Source of the DNA: Planctomycetaceae bacterium
Lineage (GTDB): Bacteria > Planctomycetota > Planctomycetia > Planctomycetales > Planctomycetaceae
Length of the DNA: 64,000 nt
Reading direction: 5' to 3'
Assembly (NCBI GenBank): GCA_020426325.1
Contig: JAGQQG010000009.1
Location: 1-64,000 of the forward strand
In this document: piece by piece, positions 42,385 to 63,825 of the stretch
Position numbering within the stretch: the stretch's first letter is position 1
Layout of the letters: every line of letters starts with the position of its first letter
The notes under the pieces: model-generated
Databases searched by the model: none
Seen by the model: the letters and a program-made list of their open reading frames with translations, nothing else
What the model was told of the DNA's origin: nothing
Made by a program: the position numbers and the translations under genes

Positions 42385-42571
42385 TCCACTCGATGATTCG
42401 GGAATGAAAGAGCCTTCACCGCTCCTTCCGCTCCACAGCTGGTTAGTCTGGGAGGCTGGGTAAGAATGGGGCATGCGGGTGGAATGTGCAGAATGATTGA
42501 GCTTGCAGGGGTGCCTGTGATTCCCTACAAGCTCGGCCGATTCTGTCTATGTTTTGGGGAATTCCGCAGCA

Positions 42572-44557
42572 ATGACGCTCGGCCAGGCCATTCCGGATGC
42601 TACTCCGACGGTGACAATGCAGGCAGGCGGCCTGGAGGGGTTGATGCCGGTCGGTCTGGACGTTCGCGAAGGAGTTTCCCGCCCGTTTCGAATCGATGTG
42701 GAATTCCTCGCGAGTGATCCCAAACTCGACATCAAGTCACTGCTCGGTCAATCGGTGACGGTGACCTTTGAAGCCGACTCGAACGGAGCAGTGCGGGAGT
42801 TCGACGGCATTGCGAGCCGGGTCGAACTGGTGGGATATGATCTCAACGCTACGTTCTACAGGATGAGATTACGTCCGAGGTTCTGGTTCCTCAGGAAGTC
42901 TGCGAACTGCCGTATCTTTCAAGGGAAGAGCGCTCAGGACATCATCAGCCAGATATTCTCCGAGCAGGGCTTATCCGATTTTGAATGGAAGATCTCCGGT
43001 TCCGCAGGGACACTTCCCCGTGAGTATTGCGTGCAATTCGGTGAGAGCGACGCCAACTTCGTCTCGCGGCTCCTGGTGGAAGAAGGGATCTCGTACTACT
43101 TCACGCATGCTGACGGACTACATACGCTCATCCTCTCTGACGATCTGACGTGCGGTGACGCGGTGGCTGGTTCCGATGACATCCGACTGGCAGCCCATGA
43201 CAGCAACGGGCAAACGGGACAGTTTCAACACTGGTCGAGTCGGCTGTCGATGCAGACGGGGACTGTCACCACGCGCGAATACGACTTCCGCAAACCGCGG
43301 GCGGTCCTGGAGGGGACCAGTCAGGTGAACGTGTCGGCATTTCAGGGTCTCGGGGCAGAAGCGTATGAGTTGTACCGATACCCCTCGGGTGTCGCGAGAC
43401 AGCCCGACTCAGAGTTCGCGCTGGACGATATCACTGCGAGTGCTCAGATTCGTCTCGAATCTGTGCAGGCAGGTGTCAAAACAATCCGTGCGGTGGGGAA
43501 CGCGTACTGGCTGAAGCCGGGCGACATGGTCAACATCTCGACCGACTTCACCGACGAGAGCCAGCAGAGTTACGTCGTCCTGGATGCTGTTCATCGAATC
43601 GGCTATGAGAAACACGGACGTAGTCAGGGTGGTGACGGCTGGTACGACGGTCGATATCTTCTGCAACACGCAGCGAATCCAATCAGGCGTCGGCCTCGCT
43701 GTCGCAGTGTGAAGATGCCAGGGCCACAAACTGCGGTCGTCATTGGACCAACCGTCGGAGATCCGAATACGGACCAGTTCGGTCGTCTGCAAGTCTGCTT
43801 TCCGTGGGATCGTGAAGGGGCGAACACCTGCTGGCTGCGTTGCGTGCAATCATGGGCGGGAAAGGGTTGGGGAAGTTTCATTCTCCCACGTGTTGGGCAA
43901 GAGGTGGTGGTCGAATTCTTTAACGGTGATCCTGATCGTCCGATCGTCACGGGAGCCCTATATAACGCTGATATGACCGGACCGCTGACTTTGCCGGATC
44001 AAATGGCGCTTACGTCGATGAAGACCAAAACGCTCGGAGCAGAATCTCCCGATCAGGGGCATGAGTTGACGTTCGATGACACGTCCGGGACCGAGAGTAT
44101 TCTGCTGCACTCCGAACGGGACTTCGTCCGTGAGGTTGAGAATAACGACTCCCTCAAGGTGGGGTTTGACAAGCAGGACCCGGGCGATCAAACAATCGGC
44201 ATCTTTAACAATCAGGTGGTCACAATTGGAGATGACTCTGCTGCTGATGGCAGTCAGACTGTAACGATCAAGTCCAACCGGAGCGTGACCTTGAAAGAGG
44301 GGGACGACACGCTTTCGATTTCTCAGGGAGACTGGAATGTGTCGCTTTCGTCCGGCACGGCGACGATCTCCGCTGCTCAACAGATTGTCCTCAAGGTTGG
44401 AAGCACTCAGCTGACGCTCGATGCGTCCGGCATCACGCTTCAGGGAACAACCGTCGAGATCGATGCGGACGGATCTCTTGTGGCGAAGGCTGCGGAGATC
44501 AAAGAACAGGCGTCTGCCGAAATGACGTTGCAGGGCGGCGTTGTCAAAATCAACTGA
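42572..44557 (+). CDS. vgrG: T6SS spike protein VgrG (TssI)
   Basis: VgrG trimers form the tip of the T6SS needle, sitting on Hcp and carrying PAAR. The gp27-like N-terminal half (VREGVSRPFRIDVEFLASD, YCVQFGESDANFVSRLLVEEGISYYF) is followed by the gp5-OB and needle region (VVIGPTVGDPNTDQFGRLQV, PWDREGANTCWLRCVQSWAG, PRVGQEVVVEFFNGDPDRPIV). The C-terminal beta-helix has repeats rich in Thr/Ser/Val (ITLQGTTVEIDADG) and ends without an effector extension. ATG at 42572 is preferred to TTG at 42554. At about 661 residues the length is typical. It opens the + strand block with FHA, PAAR and the first giant protein. Confidence 0.95.
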   Translation: MTLGQAIPDATPTVTMQAGGLEGLMPVGLDVREGVSRPFRIDVEFLASDPKLDIKSLLGQSVTVTFEADSNGAVREFDGIASRVELVGYDLNATFYRMRLRPRFWFLRKSANCRIFQGKSAQDIISQIFSEQGLSDFEWKISGSAGTLPREYCVQFGESDANFVSRLLVEEGISYYFTHADGLHTLILSDDLTCGDAVAGSDDIRLAAHDSNGQTGQFQHWSSRLSMQTGTVTTREYDFRKPRAVLEGTSQVNVSAFQGLGAEAYELYRYPSGVARQPDSEFALDDITASAQIRLESVQAGVKTIRAVGNAYWLKPGDMVNISTDFTDESQQSYVVLDAVHRIGYEKHGRSQGGDGWYDGRYLLQHAANPIRRRPRCRSVKMPGPQTAVVIGPTVGDPNTDQFGRLQVCFPWDREGANTCWLRCVQSWAGKGWGSFILPRVGQEVVVEFFNGDPDRPIVTGALYNADMTGPLTLPDQMALTSMKTKTLGAESPDQGHELTFDDTSGTESILLHSERDFVREVENNDSLKVGFDKQDPGDQTIGIFNNQVVTIGDDSAADGSQTVTIKSNRSVTLKEGDDTLSISQGDWNVSLSSGTATISAAQQIVLKVGSTQLTLDASGITLQGTTVEIDADGSLVAKAAEIKEQASAEMTLQGGVVKIN

Positions 44558-44560
44558 TGG

Positions 44561-45487
44561 ATGAAGAGAGCGGCAAGGATGTCGGTCATTCTGGAGATCA
44601 CAGGAAATTCGGCGACCCCGGAGCAATTTGTGCTTCGTGCGGGCGAGGTTGCGGTCGTCGGCCGGTCGCCCTGGGTTGATCTGTCGCTGCCGGAAATCAG
44701 TGACATCGCAGACGAACACTTCGAGGTGGATTGCCGCAGTACTTCGTGCCGGGTGAAGTCGATCGATGGTCCGCTCCTGCGGAATCAAGTCAAAATCGAC
44801 AGTGCCCTGCTTGAGGACGGAGACATCCTGCGGGCAGGGAGCGTGGAATTCCGAGTCCGACTTTTCGGGCTCACTCTCGCCAAGGGTCCCGGAGAAACGA
44901 TTCGTCAGCTCGATGCGGGATCGACTGCGGATAACGCGTTCAGGCAATGTCTCCTGCGAGCCGGACTTTCGGAAGACGCGCAGAGGTATGTTGAGAACGG
45001 TGCCTATGTGCAGACATTCGACACCCTGTCGACAGCCGGGCTGACCAAAGATGCGTGCCGCTTCGCGATCGCAGCGATGTCACCCGCTGAGGCCATCACT
45101 CTGTCCCTACAGGTCTTGGGAAGTGACTGTGGTCTGTCACCCGACGATCGTGTTCAACTGCTGGAATATGCTGCCGGAACGAACGGGACGCTGACCGCTG
45201 AAATGATCGACCAACGAATGCAGAAGCTCCCATCGAAGTGTCCGGACGCATGGATTTGGAAGTCGGCCCGCTGGTTGAAGGGAAGTCTCTCTCCCGCAGG
45301 AATGCCAGTCGTGCCGCCTGTTCCGGAATTGTTCGCTGTCGCGATGAGCGTCGCCCTTGCCTTGGCAGCAGCTCGGAGCGAAAGAGACGTCATGGGGCAA
45401 TGGATGCCTCTTGTCCGTGAGCGACTCTTGCAGAATGACACCGAAGTTCATCCAGAGACTGTTGTCACAACACGCGCATCAGCCTGA
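44561..45487 (+). CDS. FHA-domain protein with DUF6931-like C-terminus
   Basis: An FHA domain at about residues 20-105 (AVVGRSPWVDLSLP, then DEHFEVDCR in place of the usual SxxHaxi block) would bind phosphothreonine peptides, although the canonical Ser/His pair is partly altered. A helical region follows, with SPAEAITLSLQVLGSDCGL and PDDRVQLLEYAAG. The C-terminal WKSARWLKGSLSPAGMP with PVPPELF-like and ALALAAARS segments resembles DUF6931, a domain reported with T6SS and FHA. It starts 3 bp after vgrG. T6SS FHA proteins link Ser/Thr phosphorylation to assembly in other bacteria, so a control role is inferred; no kinase gene is in this block. Start at 44561 (alternative 44579). Confidence 0.72.
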   Translation: MKRAARMSVILEITGNSATPEQFVLRAGEVAVVGRSPWVDLSLPEISDIADEHFEVDCRSTSCRVKSIDGPLLRNQVKIDSALLEDGDILRAGSVEFRVRLFGLTLAKGPGETIRQLDAGSTADNAFRQCLLRAGLSEDAQRYVENGAYVQTFDTLSTAGLTKDACRFAIAAMSPAEAITLSLQVLGSDCGLSPDDRVQLLEYAAGTNGTLTAEMIDQRMQKLPSKCPDAWIWKSARWLKGSLSPAGMPVVPPVPELFAVAMSVALALAAARSERDVMGQWMPLVRERLLQNDTEVHPETVVTTRASA

Positions 45488-45525: not shown

Positions 45526-45816
45526 ATGCCGCCAGCCGCAAGAGTGGGAGATGATCACGAATGTACGGAAGTGACCGGGGTGGTGCCTCATGTGGGTGGT
45601 CCGATACTCGGTCCCGGTGCAGTCAATGTACTCCTTGAGGGGATGCCGGCTTCGATTGTGGGTGATGAGTGTGAGTGTGAAGGCCCGGTGGACATGACAG
45701 TTATGGGTTCAGCGACCGTCATGATCAGCAACAAGCCGTCCGTCCGTCAGGATGATGAGACAGAACACGGAGGCATGATTGTTGCCGGGGCACCAACAGT
45801 GTTGATCGGTGGTTGA
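45526..45816 (+). CDS. PAAR-domain spike-tip protein
   Basis: PAAR proteins form the sharp cone that caps the VgrG tip. The 96 residues show the PAAR signature in order: MPPAARVGDDHECT, VPHVGGPILGPGAVNVLLEGMPA, the Cys/His zinc ligands in DECECEGP and TEHGGMIVAG, and the closing APTVLIGG. There is no extended toxin domain. It is 39 bp after the FHA gene, and its stop overlaps the TTG alternative start of the giant protein gene. Confidence 0.93.
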   Translation: MPPAARVGDDHECTEVTGVVPHVGGPILGPGAVNVLLEGMPASIVGDECECEGPVDMTVMGSATVMISNKPSVRQDDETEHGGMIVAGAPTVLIGG

Positions 45817-45869: not shown

Positions 45870-48800
45870 ATGACACAAGCCTGGCGATTACAGCAGAATT
45901 CATCCTGGCTTCGCACGACAGCGATGCTCATGGCAGCTGCGCTGTTCCTGTGTGGACTGGCGGCCTTTTTCGTCACGTTGATTCAACCGTTTGAAGCCCC
46001 GAGATTGATCCTGTTGACATGTGACGGCGACCCGGCCACCGCAGGGGCTTCCCCCTTTCAACAACTGGCAACCTCTCATCATCGAGGCCTCTCCTTTAAC
46101 GAAGTCACGACTCCTCCGGGGCCCGACTGGCTCCAAGCGATCGAGAACCTTGGCGACGACATTCTCTCCCGGGATGTCGTGATCGTGTCCTTGCGGGGAA
46201 ATTGGGTCGACACACCTGAAGGGGCTCTGTCGTACGACAACCGTCAGGCGCCTGGTGCCGCGCCCAAGCTGCTTTTGCTTGACGACATCCTTGAACAGCT
46301 GAACGATCTTCCCGCAACTACGGTTGTGCTTTGTCTGGATGACGCAGACCCGGACCTCGATCAGTTCTCAGAGCGTTTACAGGAGGCTCAGTCCAAAGCG
46401 GATGCAAACCGCGTGGTGATCGTGACCTCGCATCGCCTGGGTGAGGAATCGTTTCCACTACCGATGCGGCGGTGTACGGCGTTCGGCCACGTGATCTCTC
46501 GTGCACTCTGTTCAGTGGCCGACCGCAATCATGATTCTGTCATCTCGATGCAGGAGTTCCTGACCACGATCGAGAGAGATGTTCAAGGGTGGGCAGCAGA
46601 GCTGACGGGGGGACGCGAAAGCCAAACCCCTTTGGTCATCGCACCCTCTGGGCTGTCCTCAGAAGCGACGGTCTGCCAGGTGCTCAAGATCGGAGCAACT
46701 TCGGCCGTCAAAACCGGGGGCACAGCCAAAAATACAGATGACGGAGCTTCATCTGATCGAACAGCTGGCGTCGAGTTGAGTCGGGTGACCACAACTTGGG
46801 ACCTGGCGACCGAATTGACTGATCGTGCCCTTGCGGGAGATGTCCCGTTGGTCGTTTGTCGCGGGATGCATCGCGATCTTGTAGAGCTGGAACGTCGCTG
46901 GCGATTTGGCGAATCGACACCCGCTCTTCGGGATGCCTATGACGCAATGCAGGCAACGCTGGAAAGCCTGTCGAAAGATCACGGAGCCCCTGCGAATTCG
47001 CCGCTATGGGCCAGTCTTTTGGCAGACTTGCTGGAACCGGTGAGTGGTGGGAAGTCGGTGGACGCTGCCTCATCAAGTCCGGCTGACCGGGGTGCCAACA
47101 CGCAGGATTCTCCGAGTGCACAACCGACAGTGCGTTCACTGCCCGTCTGGACCGGTTCGTCACGGATGAGGTCTCGCGACTCGTCAAGAATGGACGACCT
47201 CCGTCAGCTTCAGGAGATGATCTCCAGCGAAAAATCCCGGGATGCCATCGTGAACTGGCTTGAACAGGAAAGCTCCGACTCGCAGTCTCGCACTGCTCAG
47301 CTTGCGAGAAAGCTGTCGGACTTGCCGAACATTCCAGACGACCTGTGGACCGACGTTCTTCTGGCACGTGTGATGTTGGAACTCAACACTCAGGACAAGA
47401 CTGCATCCTCCTGGTGTTACGACGAATGGACTCACGCTGAGCAAGCGGCCCTGCGATCGGAAAGATTGCTCCTCGATCAGGTGGAACATGACTGGATCGA
47501 GCGGGCGCAGCAGTCGAATGCAGCGACGATGGCGAGCCTCATGCGCGGGCATGAAGTCGATGCTCTTCACCGGTCTGCGTCGAAGTTGTGTCGCAACCTG
47601 CTGCTGATTCTTCCCGACCTGCTGGAGACCGATCGGCGGCTGCAATTCTGGGAGAATGATCCCGCTGAAGTGGGAGACGTGCTGAATGGAGTCCTGCAAT
47701 CGGTCGCAGAATTGCGTCGGACGCTGTGGGAGGACTCACTCCCGGACACAGGTCATGTTGCCGGGCTGGTGCGAGCTATCGAAGCAGACAGACGCCGGTT
47801 GGCAGAACCTGTGCATCAGCTGACGACCCGCGCAACAATGCCCTCGCTCACATCTCCTCCAGCGAGTGATCTGCTGCGAGCGTTACGATCCGAACTGCTG
47901 ACCACACAGGAGCGGGCCAGTCTGCTCGCTGTCTGGCAAGAGCTCGGCAACGATTTACCGGTCAACGCTCCACACCCAACTTCCGCCGGACGCGTGATCG
48001 TTCACGGACTCTCCGCCGGATTGAAACGTAACTTTCAGCGACGGGAATTCTACAATCATCTATTCAAACCGATCACAAACGACGATCAAGCCCGTGAGCA
48101 ACCGTCAGACGATGCGGACTTACTCGATTCCCTGTTGGCCTACCAACAAGCCGAAACCGCTTGGTGTCACCAGCGACCTGGAGAGATACGTCATCAACTC
48201 GAACAATCTCTGTCGATGCCTATCGATGCCGGGACATTGGCGAGAGCGCAAGTCCTCTGGGATGCATGTGACGGCCTGACGGACGAAGCACAACTCCCGC
48301 CTCAGTGGCCACAGCTGTCGGAACGCATCGAGCAGTGCAGAACCACGCAGCACCTGGACTGGCAGATTCAACGAGTGAATCTGGCGAGAAATGATGCGAG
48401 CGATTGGGAAGCGGATTGCTACGATGAGCGTGAGTCCGACCTCCGTGCTTCTCGACCAATTTTCAGAGCATGGCCCCCTCCGGAGTATGATTCCTCCACG
48501 CTATTGGGCGGCCCCTTGACGGCAATGCTGAGCAACAAGGGCCCGGTTGAACTTCGGTTTGTCGTTCACAACATGTCAAACCGAGATCAGGATTATGTGC
48601 TCACGATGCAATACCCGGTGGATGAGTATCTGATCGAATCTCAAGTCGATCGTGCCGTTCTGCCAGCGGATGCCCCTCCCTGGCCTTATGGATCAACCGG
48701 AACCCAGACCGGACTCCCATTGAGTGTGAAAGGACTCGCGTCACGGGATGTGACGCTGCGTGTTCAGCCCCGATCGGTGGACGCTCGACCGGCAACCCTG

Positions 48801-50684
48801 CTCATAAGGTTACGGGGGGAGCAGTCGACCGTCAGAGCCACCTGCGAACTCAATCCGCCGCGAAAGATTCCCATCGAACTTATCTTGGAAGATGAGTTCG
48901 GCCCGGTGATCGAGGACGACCGAGGCTTCACGGTTGAACCGTTTCCGAACCGAGTTGGCACGCTGCACTGGCTGCTTCAGAGCAACTCGGAAACCGTGCA
49001 GCATGTTCGATTCTCAGTCCATGTGCTGGACGCGGTGCCTCCGGAATTGCCGAGGGAAGCCATCCCTACTGCATCCCTGACCGATTTTCTGGGGACTCTG
49101 TCTCGTGAAACGCACTCCATCGAACTTCCGGTGATCGAGTTGAGGCCTCACGGACCTCCACAACCGGTCGTCTTTCCCAAGGAGGATGACACGAAAGCCC
49201 CACTTGCCATGATGGGCGGACTGGTGGTCGTTCTGTCGGATGAGTCAACAGGGTTGACGACACTGCGACAGGTACGAATGAGGCCGCAGCGTCCACTGCG
49301 GTTTGCTGTCCCGCAGATCGACTATGAACAGACGACAGGACGAATCAGTCTCCGTATTGATGCTAGAGACATTGAACGTCTTCCTCGCGAAGGGATCCCG
49401 GTCTCAGCGGCTCTGGCAAACGACTCTGATCGTCCACTGCCCGCACGGACGATCGGGACGCTGAGTCGCCAGTCTCCACGGGCCATACTGACACTGCTTG
49501 CGGAACCGGAGCAGGACCATCGCGTTCATGTCCATGTGGCCGGTTGGCCGCGAGCCTTTATCTTTGACATCATCGATGGCACCCCGACACCTCTCCGCGA
49601 ACCTCAACTCCGGATCACATCGCCGGAGGCCAATCGTGTCTATCAGACAATTAACGTCGTTCCTGTGAGTGTTCAGCTCGACTCAGCTCCCGTGGGACTT
49701 GTGTCAACGGGTGACTCCTGGTTCGAAGTGGGAGTCGATGCGGACCATGACCGCCGACTGACCGGCGAGGCCGCCGTGCGTATCGAGCAGGATCGGCACG
49801 TCACCGTCGCATGGCTCGGAGCTAACCCGAACGGAACAACACAGTTTCAGGTCGGGGTTCAGGACTTCGATCTGTTGCTGCCGACGAGTGGACTTCACAA
49901 TCAGCGTGCCGGTTTGCTGGGACGGATCGTACGAGAGGGACATCCCGATCTCTGGTCAGAGGCGGTCCCGATTGTGTTCGATACATCGGGTCCCAAGCTT
50001 GCCGATCTCGAACTCCTGCCGGGGCCGGTCGTGACCATTGGTGAATCGATCGTAGTCACGGCACGGGCTGACGATCAGGGCCTGAGCGGCGTCTCGGATG
50101 TGCAGCTTGCACTCGACCCAACGCGGGAAGGAGTCTTCGGACCGTCAATCAAACCGATCTCTTCAACCCCCCTGGAAGATGGGACGTGGCGAGCCGAGAT
50201 GCCGACGAAATCGCTTGAGCAGGGACAGCACCTGCTTCTGGTCCGAGGCGTCGATCAGGCAGGAAATGCCGAAGATCCCCATCCGCTCTGGCTGGAAGCC
50301 ATCACTCCGGAAGAGGCCGCTCGCAGGCAATCCGCACGCACAACAAGCTTCTCAGGACAGCTGTTCTATGGGACAGAGCCGGCATCCGGTTTCAAAGTCG
50401 AGTTGATCGCCAATGAAGCTGAATCATCTGCCCCAGAAAAACCGATAACACCGGAGAAGTCTGTTCAATCGAAAAAGTCTTTCAATGCGACATCTGGAAA
50501 GGATGGGAGGTTTGTCATTCAATCGGTGACCGGAGGAGTCTATTCGCTTCACATCTCCGGTGTCCTGCGAGGTGAGAAGATCGAACGGGATCGCACGGTG
50601 ACGATCGACGTCAACAACCCGCCCGCTGCTCTTGCTGAGCGACTGGACCGACCACTGAAGACTGCTTCGGCCGAAATGCCCTGA
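45870..50684 (+). CDS. Giant membrane-anchored protein A: pseudo-caspase domain and large beta-rich region (T6SS-linked)
   Basis: This protein of about 1,604 residues has one membrane segment (about 18-39, AMLMAAALFLCGLAAFFVTL), with basic residues before it, so most of the chain should be periplasmic. Residues 45-265 have caspase (C14) layout: a strand at DVVIVSLRGNW where the catalytic His loop would be, TTVVLCLDDADP in place of the LDxCHSG Cys motif, then VVIVTSHRLGEES, a helix-like SRALCSVA and the EF-like DRNHDSVISMQEFL. Neither catalytic residue is kept. Helices fill about 300-900, Ig-like beta segments about 900-1490, and a carboxypeptidase-regulatory-like domain (FSGQLFYGTEPASGF) ends the chain. 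ATG at 45870 is used; a TTG at 45813 overlaps the PAAR stop. The role is unknown; it is encoded within the T6SS block. Confidence 0.82.
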   Translation: MTQAWRLQQNSSWLRTTAMLMAAALFLCGLAAFFVTLIQPFEAPRLILLTCDGDPATAGASPFQQLATSHHRGLSFNEVTTPPGPDWLQAIENLGDDILSRDVVIVSLRGNWVDTPEGALSYDNRQAPGAAPKLLLLDDILEQLNDLPATTVVLCLDDADPDLDQFSERLQEAQSKADANRVVIVTSHRLGEESFPLPMRRCTAFGHVISRALCSVADRNHDSVISMQEFLTTIERDVQGWAAELTGGRESQTPLVIAPSGLSSEATVCQVLKIGATSAVKTGGTAKNTDDGASSDRTAGVELSRVTTTWDLATELTDRALAGDVPLVVCRGMHRDLVELERRWRFGESTPALRDAYDAMQATLESLSKDHGAPANSPLWASLLADLLEPVSGGKSVDAASSSPADRGANTQDSPSAQPTVRSLPVWTGSSRMRSRDSSRMDDLRQLQEMISSEKSRDAIVNWLEQESSDSQSRTAQLARKLSDLPNIPDDLWTDVLLARVMLELNTQDKTASSWCYDEWTHAEQAALRSERLLLDQVEHDWIERAQQSNAATMASLMRGHEVDALHRSASKLCRNLLLILPDLLETDRRLQFWENDPAEVGDVLNGVLQSVAELRRTLWEDSLPDTGHVAGLVRAIEADRRRLAEPVHQLTTRATMPSLTSPPASDLLRALRSELLTTQERASLLAVWQELGNDLPVNAPHPTSAGRVIVHGLSAGLKRNFQRREFYNHLFKPITNDDQAREQPSDDADLLDSLLAYQQAETAWCHQRPGEIRHQLEQSLSMPIDAGTLARAQVLWDACDGLTDEAQLPPQWPQLSERIEQCRTTQHLDWQIQRVNLARNDASDWEADCYDERESDLRASRPIFRAWPPPEYDSSTLLGGPLTAMLSNKGPVELRFVVHNMSNRDQDYVLTMQYPVDEYLIESQVDRAVLPADAPPWPYGSTGTQTGLPLSVKGLASRDVTLRVQPRSVDARPATLLIRLRGEQSTVRATCELNPPRKIPIELILEDEFGPVIEDDRGFTVEPFPNRVGTLHWLLQSNSETVQHVRFSVHVLDAVPPELPREAIPTASLTDFLGTLSRETHSIELPVIELRPHGPPQPVVFPKEDDTKAPLAMMGGLVVVLSDESTGLTTLRQVRMRPQRPLRFAVPQIDYEQTTGRISLRIDARDIERLPREGIPVSAALANDSDRPLPARTIGTLSRQSPRAILTLLAEPEQDHRVHVHVAGWPRAFIFDIIDGTPTPLREPQLRITSPEANRVYQTINVVPVSVQLDSAPVGLVSTGDSWFEVGVDADHDRRLTGEAAVRIEQDRHVTVAWLGANPNGTTQFQVGVQDFDLLLPTSGLHNQRAGLLGRIVREGHPDLWSEAVPIVFDTSGPKLADLELLPGPVVTIGESIVVTARADDQGLSGVSDVQLALDPTREGVFGPSIKPISSTPLEDGTWRAEMPTKSLEQGQHLLLVRGVDQAGNAEDPHPLWLEAITPEEAARRQSARTTSFSGQLFYGTEPASGFKVELIANEAESSAPEKPITPEKSVQSKKSFNATSGKDGRFVIQSVTGGVYSLHISGVLRGEKIERDRTVTIDVNNPPAALAERLDRPLKTASAEMP

Positions 50685-50736: not shown

Positions 50737-51549
50737 ATGTGCTCTTCCCATAAGGATGATCGCCGCGTGGAGAACGAGTCCTTACATTGGAGCTTCCCGC
50801 GACTGGCCTCACTGCTTCTGGTGGCCGTCACAGGCTGTGCTGCCACCTATGCCACCATTCCCGAAGGTCCGGGAGTGCCGGTGGTTCATCGTCCGATGAC
50901 GCTCTGGACCTTTCTCGGAGTTGATCAACTCATCGATCATCACTACGAGAGCCATGATCGTCTGATGGCGAGAATCGGGCAGCACTTCCCTGATTTGGAG
51001 CCCAAGCCGCCACTCGTGCTGAACACGTCGCCACAAGCAGCCGCCTCTCCCAGTGTGGCGGTCCATAATGCGGCCTTCGTCCTTTCTGCAGAACAACAGG
51101 CTCCACAGAAAATCAAGGCCATCAAAGCCGTCGCCAAGGTGGGAGCCGCTGCGTATCCGCAGGTCGAGGAGGCACTGCTGGCAGGGATGGATGATCGGAA
51201 TCCCGATGTGCGTCTCGCCAGTGTTGAGGCCGTGCTCAAGACGTCGGGCGATGGATGCGATCCCTGCGATCTCACCGGGAACTGTACGCCTGCGATCCGT
51301 CATCAACTCTGGCTGATGGGATATGGGGTCCACGATGACGGATGTCCGCTGGAACCCTCGCCGGCTGTCCGTCGGGTCGCACGTCTGGCACTCGGTGTGT
51401 GCGGCGGACCAATGCCCGTTGAATGTCCGCCTCCGCAATCGAATGAATTTCCGTCACAGGAAATCATCGAGGAGGTGCTGGGACCGTACGATCTGGCAGA
51501 ACCAACTCCGGCAGACGGGCCGTCTGCGGGGCCTGTCCTCCCGGAGTAA
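50737..51549 (+). CDS. HEAT-repeat-like lipoprotein (T6SS-linked)
   Basis: The N-terminus LASLLLVAVTGCAATY is a lipobox, with the lipidated Cys at about residue 34 after a rather long hydrophilic lead. A later start, such as GTG at 50767, is possible. The mature 235 residues hold helical repeats of HEAT type (QKIKAIKAVAKVGAAAYPQVEEALLAGM, NPDVRLASVEAVL, PAVRRVARLALG) and several cysteines (GCDPCDLTGNC). It follows giant protein A after 52 bp and its 3' end overlaps the convergent giant B gene by 86 bp. It does not resemble TssJ, which is a transthyretin-like beta-sandwich. A substitute outer-membrane anchor for the complex is a possible role. Confidence 0.78.
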   Translation: MCSSHKDDRRVENESLHWSFPRLASLLLVAVTGCAATYATIPEGPGVPVVHRPMTLWTFLGVDQLIDHHYESHDRLMARIGQHFPDLEPKPPLVLNTSPQAAASPSVAVHNAAFVLSAEQQAPQKIKAIKAVAKVGAAAYPQVEEALLAGMDDRNPDVRLASVEAVLKTSGDGCDPCDLTGNCTPAIRHQLWLMGYGVHDDGCPLEPSPAVRRVARLALGVCGGPMPVECPPPQSNEFPSQEIIEEVLGPYDLAEPTPADGPSAGPVLPE

Positions 51550-54500
51550 TGAGCCCCTCGTCGTTCAGAACGGGGACACGCAGCGGAGCAGGCATGACCC
51601 GTTGCGAGGCCGTGTCAGGCATAGACAGTTGGATCTTCACAGGGGCGTTTTCGTCTTCGGCCTGAGCGTAGATGAACGTGTGCACCTCGATCTGGGCGTC
51701 GGGGTCGAGACGCCGACGGACTTTCTTGAGTGCGGGACCCGACATCCATGTGACGGCCAATTCACCCAAACCCGGCGATGTCGGTTGATGTCGGAGGATG
51801 CATTGAACGAAGTTCGCGGTCTGTCTCAGCTCCCATTGCACTCCCGGCGCCAATATGGAATCTCCCTTGGACGTCGAAGGCAACGATAAGGTTTCAACAG
51901 TGGTAGCCACCGCGTCGATCGCGCTGAGCCTCACATTTGCCTGGGGTGCGTCGACAGGCCACTGGTCTGTCGTGATTTGCATCACAGGGACAGGTGTTCT
52001 CGAAACGAACTCATCCCCTTGATAGATGAACGGCACTCCCAACTCTGCGCCCGACTGATCGAGCGGCTGAACCGTGATCTGATAGAGTTCGGGCCGAGCC
52101 AGATAGAGGCGATTTGCCTGTTTGATCGAAAATGTGAAGACTGCATCAGTGCCCGAACGTTGGTGCTGGTGTACTCCAACGAGCCAAGGGACCTTCTCAG
52201 AGTTGGTAGCATTCAAAGCAACGAATTGGCTTCGAGTTGATGTGTATTCCGCAGAGGGGAGTAGACCGGTGGAATCTCTCACATCATCGCCGAGCAGGTC
52301 CACAGCCTCTCCGCCGTTCAATTGGATGGCTGCGTTCGAATTCTCATAGGTCAGGCTGACGCTTGCCGGCAACCGATCGGTCCATGTTACGGGGGCGTTC
52401 ACAGGCGACTCATGCGATTTTCCGTCCGATCCGGTCCAAGTGAATGAAGCAGGTCCGACAAGGGAACGAAGCTTCTGAATCAACTGAGAAGCACGGCTGA
52501 CGTCCAGTTGCGATGTGCCTCCGGTCTGACTGGCGAGCGTGCCCAACTCATCACCAGCTGCCTGTTGATCCTTCGCCGACATTCCAAAGCCAATGACGTG
52601 GACAATCGCACCGGAGTCGTGAGCCTTGGCCAATGCCCCTGCGAACTCGACCCGTTGGTCCGGCGGGGGGTTGAACTGGTAGTTCCGTCCGTCGGTAATG
52701 ACTACGATGTGCCGCTGAACATCAGTCGGCAGTCCATCGAATCCAGCAGCGGCCTGTGAGACAGCCATGTACAATGGGGTTTCCCCCCACGGCAACAGGT
52801 CATCAAGTCGAGCGCTCACCTGGCCCAATTCCGGTGGACCAAACCGCCCGGGAGGCAGAATCGTCTCAACGTCGTGATAGGGCTGAAGACCATCGGGAAC
52901 AGCGAAAGTGTCAGCATAGCGCTTCTGGATAATCACCTTCTGCGACTTTGGATCATGCGTCGCACGGTGACCATAGAGCATGACTCCCACGCTGGCGTCT
53001 GTCTGGTCGGTCATCTCTTCGAGCAGACGCTTCAGGGAGGAGATTGCAGCAGTCAATTTTGTGGTCTTGCCCTGTTCTCCCTCACGAGGCACCTCTTCCT
53101 GCATGGAAGCGGAACAGTCGAGAATGAAAGTCATCGCCGCTCCTTTCATTTGTCGGCTGCTGACCGTGAATGTCGTCTCGGCTGCCGGATCGACCTCGAA
53201 CTCGCTGACGCGTCCACCTGCAGGGATGATGCGGAAATTGCTGCGATATTTGTTGCCACGAAACCACAGTTCTGCGAACAACGGCTGACTGACATCCTCA
53301 AAGCTGTTCGCAACGAGCTGAGCATTCAGGGGGAGATCGTTTTCGATGGTGGACATTTCCAACAGGTCATTCAGCGTGATGGAAGCTGCGCGACCGGGAA
53401 AGGCATCTTCCAGATGTTGAATTCCCACACGAGCCATGCCGTCCGGGAGTCCATTAACGTTTCCATTTGCGCGGACGCTGATGTGCGTACTGAGTTCGTC
53501 CGAGGGCGACACCGGGGTCAGGCTGGCCGCATCCAAGCTCAAGCCGGACTCCGCTGCGGCGATGCTGTCGGACAGTTGTTGGCGGAGACTGGTGATTTCC
53601 TGCTGACGTTCATCGGTGATCCCGGCGACGACTGTGAGCAGTCGATTGACCTGCTGGGACATCAGGATTTGATTCGTCTCCGGCAACGTGCCCCAGAACT
53701 CTCGCAGCGATCCTTCAGCAAGCCAAAGCAGCAGATCACTCCACGCGAGCCTGCGGTATTCCCTGGCCCAGTCGTTGTTCGAGGTCCTCGTGAGGCCTAT
53801 GACGCGACGGCTGCTCAGCAACTGATTGCCTGTTCCATCGTTCAGAGATTTCGCACTGGTTGGGGCGGAGTCGGACTTCTCCGCTTCGCTCAGACGACGG
53901 CAGAACTGTGCATTCAGACATTCCCAACGGGATTCACCTTGCGAGAATCCGGTTGCATGTTGAGGAGGTCCCGTCAAGACGAGCGCGGGATGAGCATCCC
54001 AGGAGCTCAACATCCGAGCCACCGACTGGCTGGGTTTGCGATTCACTGAAGCTTGCGGTTGTTGCGTACGAGCTGCAACGAGTTTCTGAAGAAGGACGAT
54101 TCGCTGTTCGGCAGGCGGGCGGCTTTCCTCGTCGTCAGTCCGACTGAGCAATGGGACCTGCAGAAGTCGTTCGAGCGCGTCTAGATCATCTGCCTGGAGA
54201 TGCCTGAGCGTGAGCAAGCGTGTCCATTCCTCATCAAACCGCGAGCGGAGTTCATTCCAGCCACGCTCCACAGCAAGAGGAGTGACCGGAGTGCTGTCCA
54301 GCTGTGGTGTTGGTGGATGCAATCGCGCGTCAAGGTCATTGATGCCGTTGAGGAGTGGCAGTAAGACCTGATTGACGAGCTGATCCTTCTGGTCCGAGGT
54401 ATTGGCATCGTGGACCGTTGCCCATTCAGCCAGAAACGGCAACTCCAGACGGATCCGGTCGCAGAGGGCCAGCTGTTGATGGAGTGTTGTTGATTCAGAG

Positions 54501-56176
54501 AGACAATGCTGCAACGAGGATTCACCCTGTGCCAGTGTGTGATTGATGTCCTCCAGTTGAGACGTCGCCCCGACTTGCAAGGCGTCGAATGCTTCCAGGT
54601 GATGCTTTCGAGGCACGTCCAGTGCTGCGATCAATTGGCGGCTGACACGAATATCCTCCGGAACGGCGATGTTTTCGAAGCGGGCGCGTTGTGACAGGAC
54701 TTTCTGAATCAGGTCCGGATGCTGCCAGCTGTCAGGCGGTGCGGCTTCCGCAAGCAGTGATGCCATTGCAGCAAGAGACGTCTGAGCCAGCAGTTCATTT
54801 TCACCCGTCGTGCGGCTTTGCTGGGTCAATGAGTCCCGATCAGCGGCCAGCAGCATCTCATCCTGTAAGGTTTGAGCCGAGTGAATCTGATCGGTCTCGA
54901 TTCCTGTTTGCTGCTGAAGCTTGAGCAGTGGATAAGCACCGACAGGCAGCGGATTCGCATCGGCTTGTCTTTGAAGATAACTGAGCCACCGAGTCACTTC
55001 GCGACCGGTCGTCATCGATTCCGCAGCTCCCGCCCGCCCGGACCACAGGTGACTCTCCCAGGATGCCAACGCACGAAGGAGCCGTCCGGCGGCCGGAAGA
55101 TCCTTTCTCCAGACATCCGTATGCAACAAATGATCGCATTGCCGCCAGGCATCGAGAAGTTCTGAATCTGCAATTTCGGGTTCCGCGGACGGAGCGGTCG
55201 ACAGCAGGTCGTCTCGTTGTGCGGTGGGAAGCGCATGAACCAGGCAACTCGTGGACTTCCCCAACTCGAAGACCTCGACAGGGTCCGACTCGGGAAGGGT
55301 TTTCTTCAGAAAGGAAATCAATTCTGTATTGGTAATGTTCCCATCAGACGCCTGGAGATCATCCGCTTCTCCGGCGAGGCCGTGCCACAATGCATCCTGA
55401 AGGACCGATCCGCGTCGTCCCCATGATCGCCAGCGGGTCTCCCCATCACCCGAACGACAATATACGGTGAATCTGGCGTACCTCTTCATGACATCCGGCT
55501 GCACCAACCACGCATCAACAGCTTCTGGAAAACCGTTGTACAGCCATCCGCTATCCCAGTCGGTGCGAGTCGGGAGGCAGTCAAGGACGAGTTGGGTGTG
55601 TTGACTCTCAGGTGCCATCTCCTCGATCTGCTTGCAGAAATCTGCGAGCAAGATCCAGGTGCCGGAATCGAACGGATTCGCGAACGGAGGGATCAGTGCG
55701 GGTTGGCCGTCCGGAGTGACCGCCCCCACTCCCCGAACATCAACGATCAAAACCTCTCCACGTTTGATCTGCGGATGCAGCGTGCGGATTGCCGTTTCCA
55801 GCTGATCCCAGGGACTGCTGGTCAAGCCGTCACCAAACCCGGCATTCTCGACTTGCAGAGTTAGACCATCCAGAAGGCCAAAGCGATCGCCGTCCTCATC
55901 GATCCAACTGGGAGAAGCAAAGGGGGTCGGATAAGAGTCTGCAAAGTAAACAAAAGCCGTGCGAGCGGGAACTTCCTGGACAAGCCACAGCCAACCTGAA
56001 GCCGCAAACAGAAAAGCAATGAGCGACAGGATCAGTCCGACTCCCGCTCCCCTCGTCACTCGGGGTGGTGGAGTAAGTTGGACAGAGGTCAGTCGATGCT
56101 TCGTGGGGGGCTGTCGTTGCAGAGACGCAACAGATCCCGGCACAGCGTCGGTCTGTGGTGCAGCAACAACCTCCAT
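51464..56176 (-). CDS. Giant membrane-anchored protein B: pseudo-caspase plus vWA domain (T6SS-linked)
   Basis: This protein of 1,570 residues mirrors giant A. Its ATG has AAAGG six bases upstream. A membrane segment lies at about 45-68 (GLILSLIAFLFAASGWLWL) after a basic tail, so the long C-terminal part should be periplasmic. Residues 70-320 show a caspase-like layout: VLIVDVRGVGAV where the catalytic His loop would be, TQLVLDCLPTRTD at the Cys position and the terminal SDGNITNTELISFL helix. The catalytic residues are not in place. A long helical part (330-880) leads to a von Willebrand A domain with an intact MIDAS site (FILDCSASMQ, Asp near 1020; VITDGRNYQF), then beta-rich segments to the end. 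vWA domains bind partner proteins through metal. Function is unknown. Confidence 0.83.
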   Translation of the reverse strand: MEVVAAPQTDAVPGSVASLQRQPPTKHRLTSVQLTPPPRVTRGAGVGLILSLIAFLFAASGWLWLVQEVPARTAFVYFADSYPTPFASPSWIDEDGDRFGLLDGLTLQVENAGFGDGLTSSPWDQLETAIRTLHPQIKRGEVLIVDVRGVGAVTPDGQPALIPPFANPFDSGTWILLADFCKQIEEMAPESQHTQLVLDCLPTRTDWDSGWLYNGFPEAVDAWLVQPDVMKRYARFTVYCRSGDGETRWRSWGRRGSVLQDALWHGLAGEADDLQASDGNITNTELISFLKKTLPESDPVEVFELGKSTSCLVHALPTAQRDDLLSTAPSAEPEIADSELLDAWRQCDHLLHTDVWRKDLPAAGRLLRALASWESHLWSGRAGAAESMTTGREVTRWLSYLQRQADANPLPVGAYPLLKLQQQTGIETDQIHSAQTLQDEMLLAADRDSLTQQSRTTGENELLAQTSLAAMASLLAEAAPPDSWQHPDLIQKVLSQRARFENIAVPEDIRVSRQLIAALDVPRKHHLEAFDALQVGATSQLEDINHTLAQGESSLQHCLSESTTLHQQLALCDRIRLELPFLAEWATVHDANTSDQKDQLVNQVLLPLLNGINDLDARLHPPTPQLDSTPVTPLAVERGWNELRSRFDEEWTRLLTLRHLQADDLDALERLLQVPLLSRTDDEESRPPAEQRIVLLQKLVAARTQQPQASVNRKPSQSVARMLSSWDAHPALVLTGPPQHATGFSQGESRWECLNAQFCRRLSEAEKSDSAPTSAKSLNDGTGNQLLSSRRVIGLTRTSNNDWAREYRRLAWSDLLLWLAEGSLREFWGTLPETNQILMSQQVNRLLTVVAGITDERQQEITSLRQQLSDSIAAAESGLSLDAASLTPVSPSDELSTHISVRANGNVNGLPDGMARVGIQHLEDAFPGRAASITLNDLLEMSTIENDLPLNAQLVANSFEDVSQPLFAELWFRGNKYRSNFRIIPAGGRVSEFEVDPAAETTFTVSSRQMKGAAMTFILDCSASMQEEVPREGEQGKTTKLTAAISSLKRLLEEMTDQTDASVGVMLYGHRATHDPKSQKVIIQKRYADTFAVPDGLQPYHDVETILPPGRFGPPELGQVSARLDDLLPWGETPLYMAVSQAAAGFDGLPTDVQRHIVVITDGRNYQFNPPPDQRVEFAGALAKAHDSGAIVHVIGFGMSAKDQQAAGDELGTLASQTGGTSQLDVSRASQLIQKLRSLVGPASFTWTGSDGKSHESPVNAPVTWTDRLPASVSLTYENSNAAIQLNGGEAVDLLGDDVRDSTGLLPSAEYTSTRSQFVALNATNSEKVPWLVGVHQHQRSGTDAVFTFSIKQANRLYLARPELYQITVQPLDQSGAELGVPFIYQGDEFVSRTPVPVMQITTDQWPVDAPQANVRLSAIDAVATTVETLSLPSTSKGDSILAPGVQWELRQTANFVQCILRHQPTSPGLGELAVTWMSGPALKKVRRRLDPDAQIEVHTFIYAQAEDENAPVKIQLSMPDTASQRVMPAPLRVPVLNDEGLITPGGQAPQTARLPELVLPDRTVPAPPR

Positions 56177-56462: not shown

Positions 56463-57959
56463 TCAAAAGTTCCAACGGGCTTCCAGAAGAATGCGTCCCG
56501 TGTACCAGCCTGCATCACCTGCAGTCACTCCGCCGCTGATCCCCAGTTCAGGGAGACCCAAATCCCCTTCAGGCCCAAGCACGAAACGGAGTCCGGGGAG
56601 GAACTCAATGGCTGTTTCTCCATCGACATCGGCTGTGCCACCCGTTGCGGTCGTCCGTTGACCATCCAGGAACGACGTCCCCACGATCTCGAAGGTCGGG
56701 AGGACGGCAAATGCATCGTTCTCGTACCAGATCTTGCTCAGACCGATTCCCCAGATGAGGACTTCACCCGCATAGTTTGCTGTGCCTGATATGGGGATGA
56801 CATATCTCAGCTGGCTGTGGATGTAAGTTTCGTCGGACCAGCGATATCGCACCAGCAGGCCCGGTTCGATAGAGACGTGTCCGCTCCCTAACCCGCGACC
56901 GGCTGGACCGGTGTTGACGTACGTCAGAGTTTGTTGTGTGACAACCCAGTCCCGGCCGTCAACAATGACCACTTTCCCACCCGTGACGAGGTCGCCGATT
57001 CCAACCGTGTTCTTGTTGATCTCAGGATTGATTGAGCGCATGGGGACTTCGATGATGGCAGAGGCACGGTCGGTCGCCGTCTCCATGCGGGCTCTGAGCG
57101 TCATGACATCCACAGACGATTCCACTCCGCGTCCCTTGGGAGGGGCTGCCCAGAAATACTCGGATCGATCCGGTTTTGAGATGCCCCAACCTTGATCATA
57201 TTGCAAGGCAATGTGTGTGAATGGTTTTGCGGAGTTGATGAAAAAAGGAGCGTACATCACACGTTCATGACCGATGCCATAGTCGCTGCAAGGGGGGATG
57301 TACGCTGCAGGAAACAACCGCTCCAACGGACCACATGGTTCTGAGCTTGGAGGACACGCGTAGCCTGTCCGGGCAGCGCGTCGCATGTTGATCCGCTCAC
57401 GCACATGGCCAGCTTCCAGAACGGATGCTGGCAGCTCGGATTCATCAAAGACGGCAGCGTTGAGGATGTCGGGGCTCGTCGATTCTCCCGAGTCATCATT
57501 CAATTCATGGTCTGCTGCTTCCGACTCCCATCGCATTTGGGGTTGAAACAAAGCATCCACATCAGCCAACGAACTCTCGATCACACTGTCGTCCGTTGAG
57601 TTCAAGGACCACTCCCGAAGGCCATCTGATTCAAGTGACGAATCTGGTGGGCCATGAACCGTCTGAGGAGTTTCGTCCGACGGGTCCTTGGCGGTCTTTC
57701 GAGCGGATCGGGACTCAAGGGATGAGAACTCTGACGTACGATCCGTGACCGTGTCCAGTTGATCCTCGAGAGAGGTGTCAGCTGCGTCCGGCTGGGTGCT
57801 TGCATCAAATCCCGGTGGACGTGGGTCGCTGGTCCGAATCGGGAGTGCATCTTGGAACGCACGTCGCAGAGGCAGAGCCGAAGGCCACTCGGCAGCAGTC
57901 AACAAACTGCTCCAGAGTACAAATGCACACGCCAGGATGAACGAGCGGGTCTGGCACAT
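56463..57959 (-). CDS. Probable outer-membrane beta-barrel protein (T6SS-linked)
   Basis: A signal peptide (TRSFILACAFVLWSSLLTAA) is followed by about 150 residues of acidic, low-complexity sequence, a Cys-containing segment (YACPPSSEPCGP), and a region of alternating aromatic and hydrophilic residues. That region fits amphipathic strands (HIALQYDQGWGISK, VSIEPGLLVRYRW, YIHSQLRYVIPIS, GRILLEARWNF). The C-terminal Phe after RWN is the outer-membrane insertion signal of beta-barrels. The start at 57959 was chosen for the signal peptide; a 58025 start adds 22 basic residues. It is divergent from tssK and follows giant B on the - strand. I do not recognise a named family. Confidence 0.72.
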   Translation of the reverse strand: MCQTRSFILACAFVLWSSLLTAAEWPSALPLRRAFQDALPIRTSDPRPPGFDASTQPDAADTSLEDQLDTVTDRTSEFSSLESRSARKTAKDPSDETPQTVHGPPDSSLESDGLREWSLNSTDDSVIESSLADVDALFQPQMRWESEAADHELNDDSGESTSPDILNAAVFDESELPASVLEAGHVRERINMRRAARTGYACPPSSEPCGPLERLFPAAYIPPCSDYGIGHERVMYAPFFINSAKPFTHIALQYDQGWGISKPDRSEYFWAAPPKGRGVESSVDVMTLRARMETATDRASAIIEVPMRSINPEINKNTVGIGDLVTGGKVVIVDGRDWVVTQQTLTYVNTGPAGRGLGSGHVSIEPGLLVRYRWSDETYIHSQLRYVIPISGTANYAGEVLIWGIGLSKIWYENDAFAVLPTFEIVGTSFLDGQRTTATGGTADVDGETAIEFLPGLRFVLGPEGDLGLPELGISGGVTAGDAGWYTGRILLEARWNF

Positions 57960-58190
57960 GCGCTCACAGGATTTCAGCGAGGAAATGCTTCGGAATGTGA
58001 ACGATCTCGAGGTCGGTCGGCGCAAACATCACCGAGAATACAGATGTTATCGGTTGTTCCGGTCAATTCGCTCAAGACGATTCGTTGGTTGAGTCGATTT
58101 CGGATGATAAGGAGCGTCTCCCCTTGATGTCGCTCAAAGTCCGTGTCCTGCAAAGCTCCCGAACCTTTCCCAGCCCCAATCACAGTCTCC

Positions 58191-59606
58191 ATGCGGCACC
58201 TCCCCGTTCACTGGTACGAAGGGCTTTTCCTCCGTCCGCATCATTTCCAGGCCCATGAGAGGCACTGGCAGGAAGCGCTATTTGCCTCGGTCAGTTGGGA
58301 CCATCCCCACTACTGGGGCATTCTGGAGATGGACCTCAGCCGGGATGCCCTGGCCGCCGGACAGCTGGAAGTTCGCACACTTCGCGCCCGGATGCGTGAT
58401 GGAACTCTGGTTGACCGAAGCGATGGGAACCCATTAGATCGCGTTGACCTGAAATCTGCCTTTGACGTGGCCTCGACCGTGACGGCCTATCTGGCCGTGC
58501 CACGACTGCATCTCGGTGAACAGAACGTTGGTAACAATGGAGCCGGTAGCCATCGCTTTCGAGAGAACAGGATGCTTCTGCAGGATGAAGCTAATGGGGG
58601 GAATGACCAGGAAGTCTCCTTCCGAGAACTGGATGTTCAAATTCGGCTGTCGACGGACGAACTGAGCGGGTTCGAAACACTCCCCATCGGCCGATTCCGC
58701 CGAACGGGCGAAAGTTCGGGAGCGACGGAACTTCTGTTGGACTACATTCCCCCCACAATTACCCTGCGGAGCTGGGCTCCGCTGGGAGAACTCTATCGGG
58801 ACATCTGCGACATCATCACACGCAAGCGAGATGTGCTTGCGTCACAAGTGGCAGCCGGGGGAATGGGTTTCGATATGCATGCCCCGGATGACGTCCAGCG
58901 TGTGTTGATGTTCATCACACTGAACCAGTTGCTGGGCGGGCTCCAGGCGTATGCAACGACTCGACACGTCCATCCGTTTGTTGCCTACACCGAACTCTGT
59001 CGAGCTGTCGGTGCACTGGATGCGTTTGACCGGAGTCGTATCGGAGAGTCCGTCCCCGCTTACGATCATGATGATCTGGGCACCGTCTTTCGGACATTGC
59101 GATCGAGAATCGAAAATGCAATTCGATCGGTGCAGGATCATCCCTACTATCAACGATACTTCCAGGGAGTCAGCTCGCGGATGCAGGTGACTCTTGAACC
59201 TGAGTGGTTCCATTCTGACTGGCAGTGGTTCGTGGGAGTCCGCAAGGGAGACCTTTCCGACACGGAGCTTCAGGACCTGCTCTCGCCGGGCAAACTCGAC
59301 TGGAAGCTGGGCAGTGCCCGTCAGGTCGAGATGCTGTTTACTCAGCGACTTCCGGGGCTCCAACTGCGACCGGTGGGTCATAAGTTGCCCGTTCTCCCGC
59401 CGCAACGGGACTGGATGTATCTGGAAGTCCCGAGGACCGATAGCCCGGCTTGGCGCGATGTTCAGGATTCCCAAACTCTCGCGATCCGTTTTCGCGACAG
59501 CCTGATCCTCAATCGTGATCGGCTGCAAGGTGAACGCCGAATCCTCGTGGACGATCAGGGAGACCCGGTTTCGCTGGAAATGGCATTGTTCGCAGTTCCC
59601 AGTTAA
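58191..59606 (+). CDS. tssK: T6SS baseplate protein TssK
   Basis: TssK links the baseplate wedges to the membrane complex. The N-terminus PVHWYEGLFLRPHHFQAHER is the TssK hallmark, followed by WDHPHYWGILEMDLS. The mid-region (LEYIPPTI-like, DYIPPTITLRSWAPLGELYRDI) and the C-terminal segment GLQLRPVGHKLPVLP are also typical. About 471 residues fits. ATG at 58191 is chosen; frame-internal upstream ATG at 58143 adds 16 residues with no family match. Its TAA overlaps the next ATG by one base (TAATG), so tssL is coupled. Confidence 0.95.
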   Translation: MRHLPVHWYEGLFLRPHHFQAHERHWQEALFASVSWDHPHYWGILEMDLSRDALAAGQLEVRTLRARMRDGTLVDRSDGNPLDRVDLKSAFDVASTVTAYLAVPRLHLGEQNVGNNGAGSHRFRENRMLLQDEANGGNDQEVSFRELDVQIRLSTDELSGFETLPIGRFRRTGESSGATELLLDYIPPTITLRSWAPLGELYRDICDIITRKRDVLASQVAAGGMGFDMHAPDDVQRVLMFITLNQLLGGLQAYATTRHVHPFVAYTELCRAVGALDAFDRSRIGESVPAYDHDDLGTVFRTLRSRIENAIRSVQDHPYYQRYFQGVSSRMQVTLEPEWFHSDWQWFVGVRKGDLSDTELQDLLSPGKLDWKLGSARQVEMLFTQRLPGLQLRPVGHKLPVLPPQRDWMYLEVPRTDSPAWRDVQDSQTLAIRFRDSLILNRDRLQGERRILVDDQGDPVSLEMALFAVPS

Positions 59607-60274: not shown

Positions 60275-60394
60275 GTCGAATGAATTCCTTTCGCTTGCGG
60301 TTTGGCAGAAATCTCTCCCTCCTTTTTCCGAGATGATTCAGCCTCAGCACGGCATCCAGTAATCAGCATCGGATTCACTGAGAGACAGACGATC

Positions 60395-61969: not shown

Positions 61970-62208
61970 CAGAGTGGATCCGGACTGAATCAATTGTCGT
62001 CCGTTTCGATCGTCGGACGACTCGAACAGTGAAACTTCCATGGCGATGAGGCACTCACCGTCAGCACGGTCGTGCAGGTCGTTTCGGTTCTGTCACCTGC
62101 CGCAACGAGGTTGGTGAGAACCGGCAATTCATGCCGATGCTCTTGAAACCATGCAAATCGACGGGGCACCGTCCGTTTGGTCATGGACGAGCACTTCGGA
62201 CATCACTG

Positions 62209-63261: not shown

Positions 63262-63293
63262 TCCTCTTTGCCAGTTGACGGCCCTTCCAAAGC

Positions 63294-63298
63294 GAGGT
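63294..63298 (+). promoter_or_regulatory. Shine-Dalgarno site deciding the tssB TTG start
   Basis: GAGGT lies five bases before TTG at 63304. The upstream TTG at 63268 has no such site. Confidence 0.6.
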
Positions 63299-63303
63299 GT
63301 ACC

Positions 63304-63825
63304 TTGGGCGACAGCAGCCAGAAATTCATCGGTCGAAATCGACCACCCCGTGTGCAGATCGAATATGATGTAGAACTCTACGGAGCGGAAAAGGAAGTTG
63401 AACTTCCCTTTGTCATGGGAGTGATGGCCGATCTCTCAGGGAATCCCGCAGAGGAACTGGCTCCGATCGCTGATCGAACCTTCCAGGAGATCGATTGCGA
63501 TAACTTCGACGATCGGCTCAAAGCGGCCCGGCCCCGAGTCGCGTTCGCAGTTCCCAACACCTTGACGGGTGAAGGAAATGTGGCCGTTGATCTGACATTT
63601 GAGAGCATGGATGACTTCTCGCCCGCCGCTGTGGCACAGAAGATCGAACCTCTCAACACATTGATGACCGCACGTCAGAAGCTGTCAAGCCTGCTGACCT
63701 ACCTCGACGGAAAATCGGGGGCCGAAACGTTGGTCAATCGGATTCTCGAAAACGAAGAACTTCTCAAAACTCTTGCGGACGAGGCCCATGCTGCTGACGC
63801 CGCCGATGCCGGAAAGGAGGCGTAA
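63304..63825 (+). CDS. tssB: T6SS sheath small subunit TssB (VipA)
   Basis: TssB and TssC form the contractile sheath. The N-terminus SSQKFIGRNRPPRVQIEYDVEL is the standard TssB opening, reached when translation begins at TTG 63304, 5 bases after GAGGT. Later blocks ELPFVMGVMADLSGNP, DNFDDRLKAARPRVAF and FESMDDFSPAAVAQKIEPLN are typical. The 173 residues fit. The tssC start is three bases after the stop, so the pair is coupled. Confidence 0.95.
   Translation: MGDSSQKFIGRNRPPRVQIEYDVELYGAEKEVELPFVMGVMADLSGNPAEELAPIADRTFQEIDCDNFDDRLKAARPRVAFAVPNTLTGEGNVAVDLTFESMDDFSPAAVAQKIEPLNTLMTARQKLSSLLTYLDGKSGAETLVNRILENEELLKTLADEAHAADAADAGKEA

Follow-up and report, generated by a model that had tools for sequence, protein, structure and literature searches.

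Non-catalytic caspase-fold proteins as probable structural components of a type VI secretion envelope complex in Planctomycetia

The window, i.e., the whole stretch of 64,000 nucleotides analysed here (Planctomycetaceae bacterium, assembly GCA_020426325.1, contig JAGQQG010000009.1, positions 1 to 64,000), contains a type VI secretion system (T6SS) locus, in which the genes of two giant proteins (A and B), a lipoprotein (H) and a secreted protein (orf36) lie among the tss genes. The features of this locus are listed below by position in the window.

42554-44557, plus strand: VgrG (TssI), PF05954 2e-79
44561-45487, plus strand: FHA-DUF6931 protein, which often adjoins A
45526-45816, plus strand: PAAR protein, PF05488 3e-18
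45870-50684, plus strand: protein A, 1604 aa, with a membrane anchor, a pseudocaspase domain, a long helical region and an Ig-like/CarboxypepD_reg beta region
45909-45998, plus strand: membrane anchor of A, residues 14-43, hydropathy maximum 2.55
45993-46643, plus strand: pseudocaspase domain of A, residues 42-258, lacking the His and Cys, with an EF-hand-like loop at 218-229
46767-48479, plus strand: long helical region of A, spanning about residues 300-870, homologous to B up to about residue 680
48492-50681, plus strand: C-terminal beta region of A, Ig-like and CarboxypepD_reg-like domains
50737-51549, plus strand: lipoprotein H, with a lipobox, a weak HEAT-like repeat and conserved Cys residues, co-occurring with A and B
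51464-56176, minus strand: protein B, 1570 aa, with a transmembrane segment, a pseudocaspase domain, a helical region and a C-terminal vWA domain
52520-53131, minus strand: vWA domain of B, Pfam 6e-7, found in 9/9 homologues
55268-55966, minus strand: pseudocaspase domain of B, residues 71-303, located by alignment and profile search
56463-58025, minus strand: orf36, secreted, with a signal-like N-terminus and a beta-barrel-like C-terminus, adjoining B
58143-59606, plus strand: TssK, PF05936 2e-69, TIGR03353
59606-60274, plus strand: TssL (DotU), PF09850 2e-29
60302-61969, plus strand: short TssM, with TM1, TM2, a cytoplasmic domain lacking Walker A, and TM3 (residues 529-555) directly before the stop
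62131-63261, plus strand: TssA (ImpA_N), PF06812 5e-28
63268-63825, plus strand: TssB, PF05591 5e-57

TssC starts at 63828 and extends beyond the end of the window, and the contig continues with Hcp, TssE, TssF and TssG. According to the Pfam matches, the locus encodes the baseplate, sheath and spike of a T6SS (tssA, tssB, tssC, tssE, tssF, tssG, tssK, hcp, vgrG and PAAR). The tss cluster ends with a 441-aa protein (L043:5397-6722, contig positions 69397-70722, minus strand), a possible cargo or accessory protein for which neither Pfam nor NCBIfam gave a match. FHA joined to DUF6931 is found beside A in many loci, and DUF6931 may be a T6SS-linked domain.

The reading frame of protein A is open from 45813 (TTG) to 50684, and its start was assigned to the ATG at 45870, in agreement with an alignment of close homologues, which begin M-T-x-x-W-R. 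A is not a chance frame, since its identity to relatives is 57, 50 and about 38 percent. A preliminary description of this DNA had placed A directly after PAAR and given it an N-terminal anchor, and both statements hold, as PAAR ends at 45816 and residues 14-43 form the sole membrane-like stretch of the protein. The helical region was modelled by AlphaFold2 as a chain of long helices, nearly all helix (pLDDT 79.9), an architecture in keeping with a spacer. A fold search with this model returned weak or chance-level matches, with neither TssM nor a known envelope part among them, a result that is compatible with a relation of the region to TssM; the matches of a whole-length profile of A were likewise weak or at chance level and did not include TssM. 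The C-terminal region, which is among the best conserved parts of A, showed weak Pfam matches to Big_7 and Big_13, while CarboxypepD_reg was matched in 8/10 homologues. No fitting NCBIfam model was found for A, B, H, orf36 or the short TssM.

The preliminary description also proposed a caspase-like (C14) fold for the first domain of A, which was upheld by structure prediction and comparison. The AlphaFold2 model of residues 42-258, built from 25 sequences, reached a pLDDT of 88.6 and a pTM of 0.88, and its best Foldseek matches were bacterial GSU0716 (PDB 3bij; E 8e-8), MALT1 and caspases. VIA-align superposed the domain on procaspase-6 with Z 16.7 and 3.1 A over 190 residues. Raptor (mTORC1) stood lower in the Foldseek list, and Raptor chains as well as the caspase-8:c-FLIP(L) complex were among the fold matches. 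Pfam Peptidase_C14 matched 2/25 relatives of the domain (best E 1.3e-6), and the domain profile reached ordinary, bona fide C14 proteins in many planctomycete genomes. A PDB sequence search with the same profile mainly returned EF-hand proteins, which match only at the loop, so that the caspase assignment rests on the structure, the C14 Pfam matches and the profile reaching C14 proteins. By fold and homology, the domain falls within the caspase alpha/beta group of the Peptidase C14 superfamily. A pattern search of viral contigs found no relative of the N-terminal domain of A.

The motifs SLRGNW (residues 107-112) and CLDDADP (residues 155-161) had been proposed to replace the His and Cys motifs of C14 peptidases, and the alignment agrees: D157 is the conserved Asp, A159 occupies the Cys position, and the aligned His is also gone. 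A lacks both the (S)GHG-like His motif and the Cys following the conserved LD that mark an active Peptidase C14. The nucleophile column holds Cys in 2/58 T6SS-linked domains versus 21/21 ordinary C14 relatives, and the His column holds His in 37/58 versus 21/21, where the ordinary proteins come from the same order and three truncated T6SS-type proteins are counted as T6SS-linked. Instead of Cys, the T6SS-linked domains have Gly, Asn, Ala, His, Ser and other residues at the nucleophile position. As predicted from these columns, lost catalysis is a property of the whole T6SS-linked family and not of A alone, which extends to the family the earlier view that A is not a protease. The EF-like end, which had also been recognized in A, is kept across the family. 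Within the domain, this loop (DRNHDSVISMQE, residues 218-229 of A) shows the highest conservation, with Asp at position 1 in 53/58 and Glu at position 12 in 56/58 T6SS-linked domains; it has the 12 residues and acidic positions 1 and 12 of an EF-hand loop and is a putative calcium site. Its retention points to a continuing role of the structural or calcium end of the pseudocaspase domain.

Proteins A and B are paralogous across some 650 residues (632 columns, E 6e-40 in a profile comparison). The homology spans the anchor, the pseudocaspase domain and the helical region, and the C-terminal halves diverge. In the vWA domain of B, D1020, S1022, S1024 and D1162 are invariant in 9/9 aligned B proteins, giving the intact DxSxS and downstream Asp of a MIDAS, a putative metal site. 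The gene of lipoprotein H sits between A and B, and the GC of its lipobox is invariant in 11/11 homologues. H and B are convergent genes whose 3' ends share 86 bases (51464-51549), and a similar overlap was seen in genome G087. The orf36 family has seven members at T6SS loci, two of the seven with a weak Phenol_MetA_deg match, and orf36 is regarded as a putative outer-membrane partner.

A survey of A and B covered 150 genomes from the order, and TssK is present in 40 of them. All 24 A-positive genomes (profile threshold E 1e-20) and all 25 B-positive genomes (E 1e-30) carry TssK, an overlap with a hypergeometric probability of about 1e-17 to 1e-18, which ignores the relatedness of the genomes and therefore has a smaller true weight. 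Among the TssK-positive genomes, 15/40 fell below the threshold for B and 16/40 below that for A; these counts reflect thresholds rather than a full census, and the genomes are partly MAGs. Many of the below-threshold T6SS-positive genomes carry giant proteins matched by the domain profile. A, H and B occur together at T6SS loci in the window's genus, Schlesneria, Stieleria, Rhodopirellula and others, and orf36 is found at some, not all, of these loci. Isolates of Stieleria, Rhodopirellula and Aporhodopirellula are among the bacteria with relatives, and the closest relatives bearing a name are MAGs labelled Planctomycetaceae, in agreement with a source in Planctomycetota. The T6SS linkage put forward in the preliminary description is thus borne out by the homologues.

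Several A-H-B loci showed further features. Near A-H-B in Planctomycetes bacterium TBK1r lies a 511-aa protein (L112:18479-20014) that matches T6SS_VipA at residues 25-130 and VipB at residues 207-499 and is, as judged from its domains, an apparent TssB-TssC fusion sheath protein. Proteins of 502-555 aa with weak TssC matches lie beside A-H-B in other Rhodopirellula and Stieleria loci and, together with the fusion-like protein, hint that planctomycetes have a second T6SS subtype. Each of the A-H-B T6SS loci L060 and L062 (G088:C380 and G083:C46) contains two different TssC-like genes side by side. One contig labelled Deltaproteobacteria MED660 (L116, NZHD01000028.1) carries A-H-B and VgrG, reflecting either misbinning or transfer outside Planctomycetota.

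The membrane complex of this T6SS is also unusual in its known parts. In the TssM of the window, the third membrane helix (residues 529-555) is the very end of the 555-residue protein, which has neither Walker A nor a periplasmic domain, and the other aligned TssM proteins of the class Planctomycetia stop at this helix or a little beyond it. Only the N-terminal PF14331 was matched in common by the eight scanned TssM proteins, and a PDB search with the TssM profile gave no match. In a phylum sample of 294 genomes, 9/9 TssM proteins of the class are 528-611 aa long and lack Walker A, whereas 21/21 out-of-class reads extend well past the TM3 point and all possess Walker A; the out-of-class open frames are mostly 1000-1700 aa, and the few shorter ones probably lie at contig ends. 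The periplasmic IcmF domain (PF06761) was found above the cut-off in 0/150 genomes of the order, and TssJ (PF12790) was detected in 0/150, including the genome of the window, although a very diverged TssJ could escape this model; the E. coli control was positive in both searches. Of the T6SS(i) membrane complex, TssL is present, and neither full-length TssM nor TssJ was detected. Among out-of-class Planctomycetota, PF06761 passed the cut-off in 12/29 genomes and TssJ in 14/29. Since the same model leaves TssJ undetected in about half of these genomes, TssJ absence alone is not diagnostic. Full-length B was found in 0/29 out-of-class genomes, and 3/3 same-class genomes in that comparison had B-profile matches in giant proteins; the contrast indicates that short TssM goes with giant pseudocaspases and long TssM goes without them. 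The out-of-class genomes G165, G197, G241, G307 and G426 encode TssM of 1400-1700 aa with Walker A and gave no match to PF06761 or TssJ, perhaps representing another planctomycete membrane-complex variant. While the preliminary description was right about the T6SS link of A, it missed the paralogy of B, the truncated TssM and the missing TssJ, which together give the scaffold idea its meaning.

Based on sequences and structure models, from which all evidence presented here derives, A and B are probably structural pseudocaspases in a replacement T6SS envelope complex of Planctomycetia. A is most likely a periplasmic scaffold, which would be anchored in the inner membrane and have a catalytically dead caspase fold as its first domain. 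The baseplate would be held at the inner membrane by TssL and the short TssM, beside which A and B would be anchored and would span the periplasm by their long helical segments and, in A, Ig-like segments. Caspases commonly pair via beta-sheets, and the pseudocaspase domains, together with the metal-site vWA domain of B, may serve as assembly contacts, with H and orf36 forming the putative outer-membrane end. A, B and H, probably with orf36, would then make up a class-specific envelope complex in place of the periplasmic half of TssM and TssJ. On balance, we slightly favor the view that the T6SS of Planctomycetia is distinct in using non-catalytic caspase-fold proteins as load-bearing parts of a trans-envelope channel, which would have evolved as a substitute for TssJ and the periplasmic half of TssM.

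An unlikely but serious alternative is that A and B act as a trans-envelope sensor or regulator of T6SS firing, in which the vWA and EF-like sites bind ligand or calcium and the signal passes through the FHA-DUF6931 protein. The invariant DxSxS in the vWA domain of B, the retained EF-like loop and the FHA protein beside A in many loci would all suit such a role. However, it leaves the missing periplasmic half of TssM and the missing TssJ unexplained, and neither A nor B has a visible cytoplasmic signalling domain beyond the short N-terminus; in addition, A and B were seen only in TssK-positive genomes, which better fits a core part. It could also be argued that the functions of TssJ and the TssM periplasmic half reside in proteins too diverged for Pfam, leaving A and B as accessories only, since the Pfam models may be biased towards Pseudomonadota and about half of the out-of-class Planctomycetota with long TssM likewise lack a match to PF06761 and PF12790. 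This is quite improbable, because the TssM of the class stops so soon after TM3 that no diverged periplasmic domain can follow there, and the single conserved lipoprotein noted in this locus, H, weakly resembles HEAT repeats and is not TssJ-like.

Two roles for A were considered and rejected as very improbable. The position of its gene directly after PAAR might point to an effector delivered by PAAR, or to an effector adaptor, but A has an N-terminal anchor and an architecture conserved from end to end, its paralogue B has the same anchor, and both are associated with the core tss genes across genera. Moreover, effectors usually vary at the C-terminus, and the C-terminal part of A is among its best conserved. 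Nor is A at all likely to be a functional protease whose active site is unusual: Cys in 2/58 and His in 37/58 of the relatives could be taken as remnants in favor of it, but the aligned residues of A are neither His nor Cys (A159 at the nucleophile position), and the relatives replace the nucleophile with many different residues.

The proposed complex can be compared with several known systems. Like the canonical T6SS(i) with TssJLM, the planctomycete locus has TssL, the N-terminal transmembrane and cytoplasmic part of TssM, and a standard baseplate, sheath and spike; unlike it, TssM lacks Walker A and the periplasmic domain, TssJ was not detected, and A, B and H are present instead. In the T6SS(iii) of Bacteroidota, tssJ, tssL and tssM are all absent and are replaced by TssNQOPR (PMC10781749). 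There, as proposed here, lineage-specific periplasmic proteins, each with one N-terminal membrane helix, and a lipoprotein replace the usual envelope parts, and the paper describing them does not mention caspase-like folds (PMC10781749). However, as judged from the description of T6SS(iii), the planctomycete locus differs in keeping TssL and half of TssM. The T6SS of Acinetobacter is reported to have no TssJ, for which TsmK and a new TssM domain for homo-oligomerization compensate (PMC10564176). The likeness lies in the missing TssJ and the compensation by lineage-specific envelope proteins; TssM is reported to have gained a domain there, whereas here TssM is cut short and its partners would be giant pseudocaspases (PMC10564176).

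Regarding the fold itself, A shares with bacterial C14 proteins (GSU0716, PDB 3bij) and ordinary planctomycete C14 proteins the overall structure, the Asp before the nucleophile and the C-terminal EF-like loop. It differs from ordinary C14 proteins in lacking the catalytic Cys and His and in carrying, besides the caspase fold, a membrane anchor and about 1300 further residues. In Raptor (mTORC1) and c-FLIP(L), a non-catalytic caspase fold serves as an interaction module; the resemblance of these pseudocaspases to A is one of fold only, and their context is unrelated. Literature searches on planctomycete T6SS, TssM truncation and bacterial pseudocaspases, covering published open-access articles and a few subscription papers, found no description of such a system. 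To our knowledge, there is no earlier case of a caspase fold recruited into a secretion machine.

The way in which a T6SS spans the envelope is understood chiefly from TssJLM and, since recently, also from TssNQOPR of Bacteroidota. Because short TssM with A and B and long TssM without them occur inside one phylum, the replacement idea is directly testable. If true, the combination of TssL, half of TssM and giant pseudocaspases in planctomycetes would be another solution to envelope crossing.
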